A DNA stretch of 64,000 nucleotides from Corylus avellana (taxonomy: Eukaryota > Streptophyta > Magnoliopsida > Fagales > Betulaceae). Below the pieces are notes generated by a model, which worked only from the letters and a program-made list of their open reading frames with translations, did not search any database and was not told the origin of the DNA. A program made the position numbers and the translations under genes. The stretch lies in NCBI RefSeq assembly GCF_901000735.1, contig NC_081545.1, positions 5,571,540 through 5,635,539 of the forward strand, given 5' to 3'. This document shows, piece after piece, positions 1 to 62,170 of this stretch. Positions within the stretch are counted from its first letter, which is position 1. Each line of letters opens with the position of its first letter.

Positions 1-430
1 TTTATTTTTTAAAATATTTCTTTCATTTCCCTTTGAAAATTAAATTCTACAAATGGTAGCATCACGCATTAGGTAAAAGACTTATAATAGATGACAGAAG
101 TCAATCCCATCCCAAAATTTCACAAAAATTTAATACAAATTTGCATTACTGTGTTAGGATTTTCTTGATGTCAAATGTAGATTCTCTTGAATAAACGGAT
201 AAAATTTACATTTTTATTATTTTCATTGGAAATTTTTGGGTTATTGTTGAATTTATTACTTGTTTTTTTTGATCGAAAGCAGCAATTTGAAAAAGAGACA
301 ATTACTCTTGTAAGTGCTGGCTTGTAACTTTTATTTGTCTTTGCCCATGGTCCCATGTTCCATTTCCTCTTGGCTTGGAATTGTGTCCTTTTCACTTAAC
401 TCGCTCCTACCTTGATGGAAAAAGTCTCTT
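1..430 (+). repeat. NLR-type 3' flank repeat (copy upstream of COG3 fragment)
   Basis: This stretch repeats the sequence found just downstream of NLR2, NLR3 and both LRR pseudogenes. It includes the marker words 'ggtaaaagacttataatag' and 'caatcccatccc', followed by a segment on TTGCATTACTGTGTTAGGATT. Matching copies lie near 15400-15620, 19860-20000, 44030-44250, 47640-47790 and 54310-54440. No NLR coding sequence is visible before it, so the parent gene is outside the window or lost. No gene is supported here. Confidence 0.75.
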
Positions 431-618
431 TTCACAATTGAGAACAAGAAGGGAGCTTTAAAATGAAGCATGATGAGATAATATGTATTGGAAATCCATT
501 TATATTTTTATGCCTTCCTCTGTTATTTGATGAACAAGGGAAAGGGGAACGACTTTGTGATTTTGAATGGAGTATGTGATAGTTACATAATTTTGATAAA
601 AACTGACATAAATTGCAG

Positions 619-708
619 GTCTGTCAGCTTGAGCAGCAACTGTTTGATCATGTTTTCCCATCTTCTTCAGAGGATGTTTCAAGTTTGGCTCCATTGATTA
701 GTCCTCTG
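619..708 (+). pseudogene. COG3: COG3-like exon fragment, copy A
   Basis: One open exon follows an acceptor 'aaattgcag' and reads VCQLEQQLFDHVFPSSSED then VSSLAPLISPL. This resembles an internal part of plant COG3, a subunit of the conserved oligomeric Golgi complex that tethers retrograde vesicles at the Golgi. After 'SPL' the reading departs from what I recall of the family, so the exon is truncated or mutated. No other COG3 exon is visible nearby. The piece lies 200 bp upstream of the ACR12-like copy A, and the same order recurs at 45422. The identity rests on one short exon and is moderately secure; function as a COG3 gene is excluded by the missing remainder. Confidence 0.6.
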
Positions 709-907
709 TTTATTGATCAAATGTTCTCCTCTTTTTCCATGTGGTGCCATGGTTGAGGCTTATTCAATAGAAAGTATAATTTGTAATACATTGGGGATCA
801 ATCAGAGTTTTCATGGCTATGATCTAGATAGCTCAACCAACTTCAATTTCATGTGCTTTTTTGTAACTTTACAAAGTGGAACTGAAGTTGGTTATTTTGT
901 TCTGCAG

Positions 908-1261
908 CTTGATGTTGATATTGCAACTCATATACAATCAAGGAAGATGGACCTAAGAGGAGGTTTGCTACTTGTGATTAAGTTGTCTTTTAGCATTATA
1001 ATTTGTTCTTCATTTTTATGTTTCTATTGTGGTTCTACCTTTGCACGACCCAACCTGTTGGGAGGCCATATTCTGAATCAAGTTTGATACTTGTTTGCAA
1101 ATAATGGGTACGTTCATCTATCATCTTATTATGCATTTTTCTCTCCAATTTACAGCTTACTTTATATAGAGACAGCTGATAGGCCTGGATTACTGGTAGA
1201 AATCATCAAAATTATTGCTGATCTCAACATTGATGTAGAATCAGCAGAGAGTGACGCAGAA
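908..1261 (+). pseudogene. ACR12: ACT-domain (ACR12-like) two-exon fragment, copy A
   Basis: Two exons with good borders are visible: 908-962 (acceptor TTCTGCAG, donor GAG|GTTT) and 1156-1261 (acceptor TTTACAG, donor GAA|GTATGC). The second reads LLYIETADRPGLLVEIIKII then ADLNIDVESAESDAE. This matches the last ACT domain of plant ACR11/ACR12 proteins, plastid ACT-repeat proteins thought to act in amino-acid or redox sensing. The first exon (LDVDIATHIQ) has lost one base relative to copies C and D (CAATCAAGG against CAAGTCAAGG), which shifts the frame. Upstream ACT repeats and the C-terminal exon are absent. A long CT microsatellite begins right after the second donor. It is a duplicated, broken gene piece that kept its intron, so it did not arise by retroposition. 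Confidence 0.8.
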
Positions 1262-1266
1262 GTATG

Positions 1267-58798: not shown

Positions 58799-58835
58799 GA
58801 TTGAATGGCTGAAAATTGAAATAAGGCATGCCCTC

Positions 58836-59100
58836 ATGCCTTATTTCAAGTTTTGGTCTATGGTTTCCATTCCTCTCTGCCCCATGCCCTCATGCCCTCA
58901 TGCCCCCACTCACCCTTATAAATTAAGTGAAACTTTTTTTTTCCCTTTTGAAGGAAACCCTGGGGAAGAGGTAGAGCTGAAAGTGGTGCCCCCTCAAGAG
59001 TCATTTGGGTATTTATCCAAATTTCTATATGTTTTTAAAAATTTGTTTAATAGCTTCGTTTGGATTAGAAGCACGATCTTGATATTTAAATCTAGAGATG
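58836..59100 (+). repeat. Repeat of unidentified exon-like phrase
   Basis: It matches 22330-22570 ('tggtctatggtttccattcctctctgccccatgc') and carries the best open version of the phrase NPGEEVELKVVPPQESFG. The phrase occurs six times in the window and may be an exon of a gene I do not recognise. Confidence 0.5.
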
Positions 59101-59315
59101 CACACATTAATAGTGAAATTGGCCACAATACAAGCAAAAGTCAAAGACATGAATCATTTTTAAGGCATATAAACATGCAAAATAACATATGTTAACACCC
59201 TGAAATTTTGAAATTGCTGAGAGACACACCTCTAAATTCAACCACCCTTTATTAAGATGAGCTTGTCTAGTGTAAACCACCTTAATTTTCTTTGATGCTC
59301 GATTTATGGGGTTGG

Positions 59316-59968
59316 TGTAACATCCCACCCCAATGACACACAATATTGTCCGCTTTTAGCTCCCCTCGAACCAGACTTCCCAGGAGGTCACCCATCCTAG
59401 TACTACTCCAGCAGAAGCACGTTTAACTGCGGAGTTCTGATGGGATCATGACCATCACGGCTTTAAAACGCGTTGTTGTCATTAAGGGTGTAGTATACAT
59501 TTAAGCATATCCCCATCTTCATACTCAGGTGATGTGGGATGTCACAATCACCCATCTTCATACTCAGGCGATGTGGGACATCACAATCACCCCTTCTTAG
59601 GACCTAGCGTCCTCGCTAGCGACCCTCATGGGATTTGCCCATTCTTGGCGTCCCCCCCAACGAGCGCCCGCTAGCGACCTTCATGGGCTTGTGCACGCTC
59701 CCCCCATCTCAGGCTGGGCAATGGCTCTGATACCATTTGTAACATCTTACCCCAATGACACACAATATTGTCCGCTTTTGGCTTCCTTCAAACCAGACTT
59801 CCTAGGAAGTCACCCATCCTGGTACTACTCCAGTAGAAGCACGCTTAACTGCGGAGTTCTGATGGGATCATGGCCATCACGGCTTTAAAACGCGTTGTTG
59901 TCATTAAGGATGTAGTCTACATTTAAGCACATCCCCATCTCCATACCCAGGCGATGTGGGACGTCACA
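59316..59968 (-). mobile_element. Cassandra-type TRIM with 5S rRNA-like LTRs
   Basis: Two LTRs (59316-59585 and 59738-59968) start TGTAACATC and end CACA. Each holds an antisense 5S rRNA-like core (59376-59447 and 59798-59869), including the complements of box C (GGTCACCCATCC) and box A (AAGCACGCTTAACT). Read on the minus strand, a PBS TGGTATCAGAGCC follows the right LTR and a purine tract AAGAAGGGG precedes the left one. The interior is about 150 bp and non-coding. The left LTR has an extra 39-bp tandem copy of its terminal segment. No clean target duplication was seen (GTTGG against ATTAG). Confidence 0.92.
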
Positions 59969-60239
59969 ATTAGGTCAGATTATGACTTAATCACACTTGA
60001 GGGAGTGTTGCAGTTCTTACTGCATAGGTCCTCATGTGCAGCTCTCAGTGAGTAAATGCTAATATAATCACGCCCAAATAAAATAGCAACAGTTAATCTC
60101 TCACACTTACCTTTTTTTAATTAGAAAAAAAAAAAATTAAAAAGAAAATGAGCTTGTCTAAGTGTCATGGCTTTGTGCGGGCAAAGGTATATGTAGACAG
60201 AGTAGCACTATTTCAAACAACACAGCCCCTTGCAAATTT

Positions 60240-62170
60240 CTCATTTAATAGTTCAATTATTCCACAACTGGATTCTTTGAGGGCACTAAATGCAACATGT
60301 GTTTATTGTATTCTGTTGAGTTAAAACACATGGGTGGAAAAGAATTTAAGTTTCATATTAAAAAGATTAGACAAGTATGAATGGTTAATGTAACACAATT
60401 AAACCCAATTACAATAATTTTTTTTTTTTTTTTTTTAATTACAACTTGAAAGGAATTCCAATTGCATAATGGTGTGCTCATTTGCACAGCGGGCTTTCCA
60501 TTGAAAGATTTTTCTTGGATGCAAACTAATTGGCAGTCTTACTCAATTATTCTACCGTATGCCTTTCTCATTTTCCTTCTTGTGCCATGGCTGAGGCTTA
60601 TTTAGTAGAAAGTATAATTTGTAATACATTGGGAATCAGAGTTTTCATGGCTATGATCTAGTTAGCTCAACCAACTTCAATTTCATGTGTTTTCGGTAAC
60701 TTTACAGGTTTGAACTGAAGTTTGTGATTTTGTTATGCAGCTTGATCTTGATATTGCAACTCAGATACAAGTGAAGGAAGATGGACATAAGAGAAGGTTC
60801 GCTACTTGTGATTAAGTTGTCTTTTAGCATTGTAATTTGTTGTTCATTTTTATGTTTCTCTTGTGGTTCTACCTTCGCAGGATCCAACCTGTTGGGTGGT
60901 CATATTCTGAATGAAGTTTGATACTTGTTTGCAAAGAATGGTTGCATTAATCTACCATCTTATTATGTATTTTTCTCTCCAATTTACAGCTTACTTTGTA
61001 TAGAGACAGCAGATAGACCTAGATTACTGGTAGAAATCATCAAAATTATTGCTGATATCAACGTTGATGTGGAATCAGCAGAGATTAACGCAGAAGTATT
61101 CTCTCTCTGTGTTTAAATTGAACCAAATCATCCTTGAGCTATAAAAATCCCCTGTTTAAATTGTGTGCTTCAAGATTTGATTTATGGTTCATTGCATTTT
61201 GTGAGGCTTTTGGACCAGATGCCAGTGACTCGAATATCCCTTCTAGCTACCTTGAAAACGATTAGTTATCAATAATGTTTAGTAAAAAAGCAAAACTAGA
61301 TCAAGCTTGTTTGTCAAGTAAACCTTTTCCTATGCAATGTATTTTTAAATTTTAAAAATGAGCACATATTTCCCATTGCTGTTTTGTGACATGGTAATCT
61401 TGGCAGCACATAAGAGCATATGGTTGTGCATTTTCAGTATAATGTACGTAGTTTCCTTGTACATATCTTCTTTTCATTATGATATGCTGCTCAACTTCTT
61501 AAATGAATTCTTGATAGGTACTAGGAAACTGTTGTTAACAAATGTCCTTGCTCCTTTTTGTTTTATTCAGGTTAATGTATGAGGAGATCCTGTCACTGGT
61601 TTCTATCCCTCTGAGCTAAGGAGCAATTAGCGCGTGATATCAGTAACGACCCGCCTTAACAACTTGCTTGGATAACAGTCATGGCTAATGCCATAATCCC
61701 AATAGACCCGATGATTGTAGTGCATGTGTGATCCATCTTTGATCAAGTCTATAACGTACTCAACCATCAACACAGCTTGCCTGCAATGATTGGTGCTGAG
61801 ATTTCAAGTATCCATCTTCTGATGCATGTGATCAAATTGTTAGAATATTTCAATAATAGATTTATTCTTTTTTCATAGCATGTATAAATAAAATTTAACA
61901 AAGACATACCTCCAGTATTCTCATGACTAAACATATGACAATGCTAGTCTACACAATAGGAACAAATACAAATATACAATACAAATTTCATGCTCATGAC
62001 CGGTAAATGACTGTCTTCTCAAAATCGTGCAAATTACATTGAGCCACGGTGTTGATGTATTGTGGAGCTTGTACGAATCTCATAGGGAAGGGGTCCCAAC
62101 CGTCATCTTTTAGGATATGTGAAAAAAGGCTAGGATCTTCGAGTTCATATCTTAGTTTCGCTTTGTTATC
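60240..62170 (+). repeat. Duplicated segment, copy 2 (matches 55055-56950)
   Basis: Same order of blocks as copy 1, with indels of a few hundred bases, for example about 61840-61990, which is absent from copy 1. It contains ACR12-like copy D and no other gene. Confidence 0.75.
60741..61095 (+). pseudogene. ACR12: ACR12-like two-exon fragment, copy D (frame open)
   Basis: Exons 60741-60796 and 60990-61095 read LDLDIATQIQVKEDGHKRSL and IETADRPRLLVEIIKII without a break. The conserved Gly of the ADRPG turn, the usual ligand-loop signature of ACT domains, is Arg here, so the domain is unlikely to work normally. The CT tract after the donor is short. Neighbouring ACT exons are missing. It is a duplicated gene fragment. 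Confidence 0.8.

Follow-up and report, generated by a model that had tools for sequence, protein, structure and literature searches.

The closest published process to the one considered here is the integration of domains into nucleotide-binding leucine-rich repeat (NLR) receptors of the MIC1 clade in grasses (Bailey et al. 2018, PMC5819176); in the sections of that account drawn on here, the integrated domains form fusions with the receptor and differ from gene to gene, and, as in the present case, no clear transposon footprint is described. Local duplication of NLRs, consistent with unequal crossing-over, is described for cacao in the part of PMC12405883 used here, and transduplication by Helitrons or Pack-MULEs, in the corresponding part of PMC13317346, yields unlinked gene fragments with introns in one orientation. 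Here, we analyzed 64,000 nucleotides of the hazelnut Corylus avellana (C5:5571540-5635539, hereafter the window), which lie inside a 1.36-Mb array of coiled-coil nucleotide-binding-site leucine-rich-repeat (CC-NBS-LRR) genes on contig C5 and in which pieces of other host genes, referred to as the passenger, stand between the NLR copies. As in cacao, the NLR copies have multiplied locally, but as far as that source goes the hazelnut array differs in carrying a captured multi-gene passenger inside the amplified unit. In contrast to the MIC1 receptors, what recurs in tandem here are mostly broken fragments from one set of six genes, and one protein joins a small exon. The unlinked origin of the fragments, their introns and their single orientation resemble the Helitron and Pack-MULE account, whereas no element ends were found, dispersal was not seen and the duplication is local. 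Among titles and beginnings of abstracts in the open-access literature, we found no NLR array with such cargo.

We consider it probable (about 0.75) that the locus represents a tandem array of CC-NBS-LRR genes that took up genomic fragments from six unlinked genes, each probably in a single event, just downstream of NLRs and in sense orientation to them. A search of the genome (369.9 Mb, 12 contigs) showed that the array reaches far past the window, from ~4.62 to ~5.98 Mb of C5; the NLR cluster that, according to a previous sequence-only reading of the window, had expanded together with a passenger block is thus real and larger than claimed. Comparison of the window with itself yielded 163 direct-repeat pairs versus 5 inverted ones, and profile searches revealed a recurring order of NLR, 3′ flank modules N3-G-A, passenger, and next NLR. 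The receptors form a tandem array of the CNL class (RGA-type NLRs), with Rx_N, NB-ARC, winged-helix and LRR parts in head-to-tail copies, Rx_N being assigned by Pfam for the copy NLR1 and by DNA similarity for NLR2 and NLR4.

The passengers between the NLR copies are fragments of six host genes: COG3, ACR12, EDC4/VARICOSE, BRUTUS (BTS), EBP1 and ILR3 (bHLH105). Five of these families had already been named from the letters alone and were located in the window by tblastn with plant proteins and then by DNA matches to parents in the same genome, whereas EDC4/VARICOSE had been missed. The identity of EBP1 is further backed by matches to PA2G4 sequences in the PDB and that of ACR12, weakly, by a Pfam ACT match with a score below the cut-off. 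A genome search with a repeated module of the passenger (module E) identified a C3 locus (39.386 Mb) with a match to the window; the open reading frame (ORF) of this locus carries the Pfam domain EDC4_C (E 1.3e-13), with one PDB hit besides. By these matches the sixth fragment is EDC4, of which we take VARICOSE to be the plant name. Module E had also been considered as plain downstream DNA of ACR12, but the flanking stretch of ACR12 had no match to it, and most of the module corresponds to the 3′ end of EDC4/VARICOSE. A Brassica protein (P0121), taken for a fusion of ILR3 and ACR12, turned out to be repeated ACR12.

At the DNA level, the window contains COG3 at two places, ACR12 at four plus a 39-base remnant, BRUTUS at six, EBP1 at two, ILR3 at three and EDC4/VARICOSE at four, so that two to six recurrences, as proposed, apply to each of the five named families. 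When each of the six genes was represented by a single parent locus (E<=1e-4), all 42 parent matches in the window lay on the plus strand, that of the NLRs, and none on the minus strand, in agreement with the single strand noted before. An earlier set of six loci, comprising two ILR3 paralogs and leaving out EDC4, returned 40 hits (E<=1e-6), of which 39 were on the plus strand and one, from an ILR3 paralog, on the minus strand; after Markov randomisation of this set, 20 rounds produced 0 hits. The order of pieces is, as had been stated, mostly fixed but not strictly so: ILR3 directly follows the flank in units P3 and P5, and in the decayed middle of the window BTS stands before EDC4. Introns are retained, since alignments of parents to fragments run through intron DNA, and the successive acceptor, donor, acceptor and donor of ACR12 read AG, GT, AG and GT in four of four copies (alignment A1, by eye). 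To this extent the claim that introns and splice sites were kept is correct, but frameshifts or stops are common among the pieces.

All parent loci were found on contigs other than C5, namely ACR12 at C1:36.23 Mb, BTS at C1:7.06 Mb, EBP1 at C9:21.57 Mb and EDC4 at C3:39.386 Mb, where the C-terminal end of the gene was examined. Nearly the whole protein was matched for EBP1 on C9 and BTS on C1, and residues 65-288 for the ACR12 parent. COG3 has relatives on C2, C6 and C7 and ILR3 on C2 and C3; for both, several paralogs are about equally close and the exact donor is ambiguous. Thus, within the hazelnut genome the pieces match the proposed families and do not lie beside intact parents. ACR12 gave 40 matches, 31 of them on C5 (4.656-5.977 Mb) and 9 in two genes on C1, EBP1 64 (47 on C5, 9 on C9, 8 on C10) and ILR3 41 (31 on C5, 4 on C2, 3 on C3, 2 on C4, 1 on C8). 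At least 63 matches were obtained for BTS (26 on C5, 15 on C1, 13 on C6, 8 on C3, 1 on C8), at least 62 for COG3 (12 on C5 and 50 on C2, C6 and C7 together) and at least 77 for module E (63 on C5, 6 on C8, 3 on C3, 4 on C10, 1 on C4). The flank module N3-A had 74 of 76 scored matches on C5 and two in one block on C8, and a further module (H) 25 of 26 on C5. These counts are lower bounds, all first-look candidates having been scored for ACR12, EBP1 and ILR3, 56 of 140 for BTS, 57 of 95 for COG3, 40 of 138 for the flank module and 40 of 112 for module E. If the parents, their relatives and the C8 block are set aside, the scored genome matches fall almost entirely within the C5 array. The wider array holds both orientations (ACR12 matches on C5: 18 plus, 13 minus); in each of eight further stretches (six on C5, two on C8), the tested pieces were all on one strand, matching that of the NLR parts where these were present.

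Separate units share their breakpoints. Residues 191 and 249 of EBP1 abut at ten places in the array, one of them in the window, and this joint was confirmed at the DNA level in window unit P1 and in loci L027 and L029. BTS starts at parent position 353 in P1, P6, L028 and L029, at 354 in P0, 357 in P4, 374 in L027 and 386 in P2, EBP1 at parent position 3870 in P1 and L027 and at 3892 in L029, and EDC4 at parent position 1492 in three of four places (P1, P7, P8), the fourth (P9) being a 52-base remnant. The NLR 3′ flank is repeatedly attached to the pieces, as also seen before, and the five BTS-attached flank copies form one clade (support 0.998). P3 and P5 are mutually closest in the flank (96.6%) and in module A (90.8%), and internal BTS deletions mark subgroups of units. 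Microhomology of 3 nucleotides was observed at two deletion joints (the internal one of EBP1 and BTS 647|928), the other joints being blunt or unclear, and the fragments attach to differing positions of the NLR flank. Since the matches are concentrated in the array and the breakpoints are common to separate units, a single capture of each piece is probable, in the form of genomic DNA taken up next to an NLR, followed by local amplification of the composite. Duplication of a chimeric unit at the DNA level, one of two origins suggested in the sequence-only reading, is well supported by the parents elsewhere, the concentration in one array, the common breakpoints and the single clade of BTS-attached flanks. 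Capture would have occurred during double-strand-break repair, whether by end joining or by template switching at short microhomologies. The composite units of NLR, 3′ flank and passenger would then have been multiplied by unequal crossing-over among the NLRs, a process that would also have repeatedly fused truncated units.

Several observations weigh against capture by break repair followed by local amplification. In the window, the six fragments all share the orientation of the NLRs, with a chance of 1 in 64 if they were independent. EBP1 and EDC4 pieces pass the parent stop, ILR3 reaches it, one ACR12 piece of unit P8 derives from past the last coding exon of its parent, and COG3 is internal; the 5′ end of the parent gene was found in none of the pieces. 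Six sense pieces, four of them reaching or passing the stop, are not predicted by random break repair. The module trees conflict, P0 grouping with P7 in module N3b, with P2 in module A and BTS, and with P4 in the ACR12 region; we read this disagreement as recombination between units, which would leave a single history unreadable. The C8 block (~11 kb, C8:15567807-15579090; L048 and L049) shows an array-like order with a gap of 100 Ns nearby and long alignments to C5 units at 88-99% identity, and represents either a genuine move or a misplaced contig. Two of the four ILR3 matches on C2 (46.535 and 46.580 Mb) are partial, contain stops and lie apart from the main locus, the remaining match of module H, 61 bases long, is on C4, and weaker matches to the EDC4-derived module occur at C10:16.08, 22.19 and 22.29, C4:15.28 and C3:33.95 Mb, perhaps representing EDC4 paralogs. 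In five of six pairwise comparisons of copies, ACR12 exons slightly exceed the other columns in similarity, and P0 and P4 share 90 identical bases in the COG3 exon (taken from the alignment, a small sample); both may hint at conversion or selection. Finally, capture was inferred and not seen directly, and a mobile vehicle that had lost its ends would leave the same remains.

Two NLRs of the window are apparently intact, and all genes and fragments located here are on the plus strand. NLR1 (4200-8116) comprises an Rx_N exon (4200-4628; Pfam, 6.6e-27) and an NB-ARC/LRR exon (4961-8116; NB-ARC 5e-48, with winged-helix and LRR matches too). NLR4 with its 5′ flank (36538-43779; Pfam and profile search) comprises an Rx_N exon placed by DNA similarity (38461-38814) and a main exon (40606-43779) with NB-ARC, winged-helix and LRR matches; two possible 3′ exons in its flank (43858-43926 and 44681-44833) stand between GT-AG introns on a splice path deduced from an NLR protein, P0242, considered below. 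The remaining copies are interrupted by an assembly gap, truncated or represented by flank only. Repeat comparison and profile searches placed the 5′ flank and Rx_N exon of NLR2 at 11524-14736 and its 3′ end, 3′ flank N3 and module A (unit P2) at 15133-16314; between them lies a 100-N assembly gap (15033-15132), bordered by sequence that corresponds to NLR-body positions 83-210 and 3159-3254, so that ~2.9 kb of body would be missing if the copy is complete. Profile searches identified NLR3 (18534-19643) as an LRR part and NLR5 (46857-47441) as the last LRRs, and in unit P7 the 3′ flank (54157-54749; also by repeat comparison) is left with the NLR body gone. The decayed middle of the window contains an inverted repeat (31609-32455, arms of ~270 bases, 76%) to which sequence in the C8 block and in further units of the array is related.

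COG3 was located in unit P0 (592-709), as 118 bases comprising an intron end, acceptor and one exon (90.7% to COG3 on C6; residues 365-396 of protein P0243), and in P4 (45407-45512; 92.5% to the C6 parent), where an AG acceptor precedes the exon start at 45422. ACR12 follows COG3 in P0 with two exons and introns (709-1289; 89.5% to the parent) and, by parent alignment, in P4 (45512-46070), and occurs again in P7 (55401-56052; 82.5%) and P8 (60569-61221), the latter consisting of 60569-61108 and of 61118-61221, the piece from past the last coding exon; the 39-base remnant (8424-8462) lies in the NLR 3′ flank of P1 (8132-8462; profile search and parent alignment). Another repeated module (F, at 55101-55422 and 60244-60571) sits upstream of ACR12. 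EDC4/VARICOSE is present in P1 (8663-8818; 84.1% to the C3 locus), in P7, extending past the stop (56324-56962; 79.6%), and in P8 (61451-62198; parent DNA). BRUTUS forms four blocks in P0 (1568-2575; 81-86% to the parent) and was aligned to the parent in P1 (8896-10117) and, together with profile searches, in P2 (17446-18240), in P4 (46465-46830, joined to a second NLR-flank copy, D, within 46212-46848) and in P6 (52102-53258, joined to flank D at 51882-52099), where a weak C-terminal match (53408-53464; tblastn, E 0.001) stops ~10 residues short of the end of the query protein. The strongly decayed unit P9 (27627-30693; profile search, tblastn and parent DNA) holds BTS at 27627-27734 and 28182-28280 and EDC4 at 30599-30650. 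The 3′ half of EBP1 runs into its 3′ flank in P1 (10429-11433; 83-93% to the C9 parent, with PA2G4 matches), the internal deletion joint lying at 10659-10661, and a second piece (18370-18534; 91.2%) is joined to an NLR LRR at 18534. Tblastn and parent DNA placed the last exon of ILR3 in P3 (21208-21445) and, up to the stop, in P5 (48955-49207), and the bHLH exon, an intron and the start of the last exon in P6 (53839-54156).

A Helitron or other transduplicating element might have gathered the six fragments, landed by an NLR and been co-amplified with it before its ends were lost, which we regard as unlikely. Several unlinked gene fragments with introns in one orientation are typical of maize Helitron cargo and are what is seen here, and an old vehicle may have eroded. 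Nevertheless, a strict scan for CTRR and hairpin 3′ ends on both strands of the 64 kb, in which 5′ TC ends were not searched, returned one site, within a Cassandra-like element and at chance level (0.3 per strand in 10 random sequences). That element (59316-59970, unit P8) consists of 233-base direct repeats (91.8%), each with a minus-strand match to 5S rRNA, and looks like what we take to be a Cassandra-type terminal-repeat retrotransposon in miniature. As for Pack-MULEs or other elements with terminal inverted repeats, none of the inverted pairs in the self-comparison flanks the blocks (target-site duplications were not searched). Dispersed copies with common ends were not seen either, the flank modules lying on C5, in the one C8 block and in the short C4 match; modules N3/G/A and H, tried as transposon families, were not seen dispersed among the scored genome matches. 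Moreover, the fragments are joined to differing NLR-flank positions and not between common ends, and Pfam detected neither transposase nor reverse transcriptase in 30 ORF pieces of the window. A mobile-element origin of the passenger, including the Helitron-like transduplication offered as the second possible origin, is therefore unsupported.

Selection might alternatively keep the passenger because it equips NLR transcripts with 3′ exons, terminators or decoy peptides, as a nascent NLR-integrated domain; this, too, appears doubtful. It would be favoured by the sense orientation of all pieces and by P0242, a C. avellana NLR protein named RGA3, which runs from the NLR through two flank stretches into a COG3 exon and then an ACR12 piece. 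In unit P4, GT-AG ends bound each of the three introns on the corresponding path to the COG3 exon. Once the exons are joined, the reading frame continues beyond the first splice for 119 stop-free codons and terminates a little past the COG3 exon (1168 residues counted from the start of the open frame). P4 and P0242 agree in 499 of 560 residues of the NLR part (117 gap columns not counted) and in 13/23, 44/51 and 40/41 residues of the three added exons. The exact P0242 locus was not found, two array loci having been compared, one of them window unit P4, and neither being identical. The C. avellana RGA3 cluster described on chromosome 8 in the Gasaway region of the Jefferson assembly (PMC11152071) shares species and annotation name with P0242; gene fragments are not mentioned in the part of that account used here. 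The joining of a COG3/ACR12 piece onto this annotated resistance protein is suggestive, but P0242, known here as a protein and not as a gene model, may be a prediction artefact. Furthermore, the donor GT of the first flank exon is present in P1, P2 and P7 but lost in P3 and P5, pieces commonly contain stops or frameshifts, and with about 32 residues of COG3 retained and the other proteins likewise partial, no piece amounts to the whole exogenous domain of an NLR-integrated domain.

The divergence of the cargo likewise speaks against selection, exon and other columns differing between copies to a like degree: 88.8-95.6% identity in ACR12 exons and 87.0-92.3% elsewhere. Noncoding divergence from the parent was 10.6-13.8% for ACR12 (four copies), 15.7-18.2% for BTS (six copies) and 11.6% for EBP1 in P1; short pieces gave 4.0% (2/50) for EBP1 in P2, 12.8% (5/39) for the ACR12 remnant in P1, and 20% (3/15) and 0/3 for COG3 in P0 and P4. 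The corresponding exon values were 5.5-8.5% for ACR12, 6.3 and 8.9% for EBP1, 13.5-14.9% for BTS and twice 7.8% for COG3, with exon limits from tblastn stretches that cross some EBP1 and BTS introns, so that only the ACR12 split is clean. In EDC4, exon mismatches were higher than noncoding ones in P7 (46/290 vs 39/325) and P8 (45/264 vs 9/116), the other matches giving 2/24 vs 16/174, 7/36 vs 14/117 and, exon only, 8/52. On the whole, this pattern fits decaying fragments compared with constrained parents and roughly neutral change, with the slightly higher similarity of ACR12 exons and the identical COG3 stretch as counter-evidence, and most passengers are probably inert, decaying cargo.

Some passengers may nevertheless supply splice acceptors, so that read-through NLR transcripts would gain alternative 3′ exons. 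More speculatively, and somewhat less likely still than retention by selection, the 3′ flank of this NLR clade could be a polarity-biased capture site for sense 3′ gene parts with acceptors and terminators, giving transcripts new C-termini. The bacterial effector AvrRps4 acts on BRUTUS and through it on ILR3, according to the parts of PMC8150971 and PMC11116571 used here, a point in favour of selection; that two of the six cargo genes belong to this targeted pathway may be coincidence.

Retroposition of unspliced or partly spliced transcripts would produce sense fragments biased towards the 3′ end, as seen here with four of six pieces reaching or passing the parent stop, BTS ending near it and no 5′ end, but it is very improbable: introns are retained, with intron DNA aligning to the parents, where processed retrogenes lose them, the EBP1 piece starts within an intron, and the ORF pieces scanned contain no reverse-transcriptase domain. 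That the pieces are remains of a segment where the parents were once neighbours, as a mostly fixed order and one orientation might suggest, was rejected as hardly credible, since in this genome the parents are linked neither to each other nor to the array, lying on several contigs or tens of Mb apart, and seven stretches beside four of them gave six short window matches, none within a passenger piece.

The route by which NLRs gain foreign domains is still debated as an open question: receptors with completed integrated domains have been described, and intermediate forms are far less well known. This one array offers dozens of units with shared captured breakpoints and parents known from the same genome, which makes the sequence of capture, duplication and decay accessible to study; whether transcripts are spliced into the cargo is testable with ordinary RNA data. 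For annotation, the array is a warning that hazelnut NLR gene models may include COG3 or ACR12 exons. Should the flank indeed favour capture in one polarity, the array would amount to a workshop in which integrated decoys are still being made, with BRUTUS and ILR3 among the baits.

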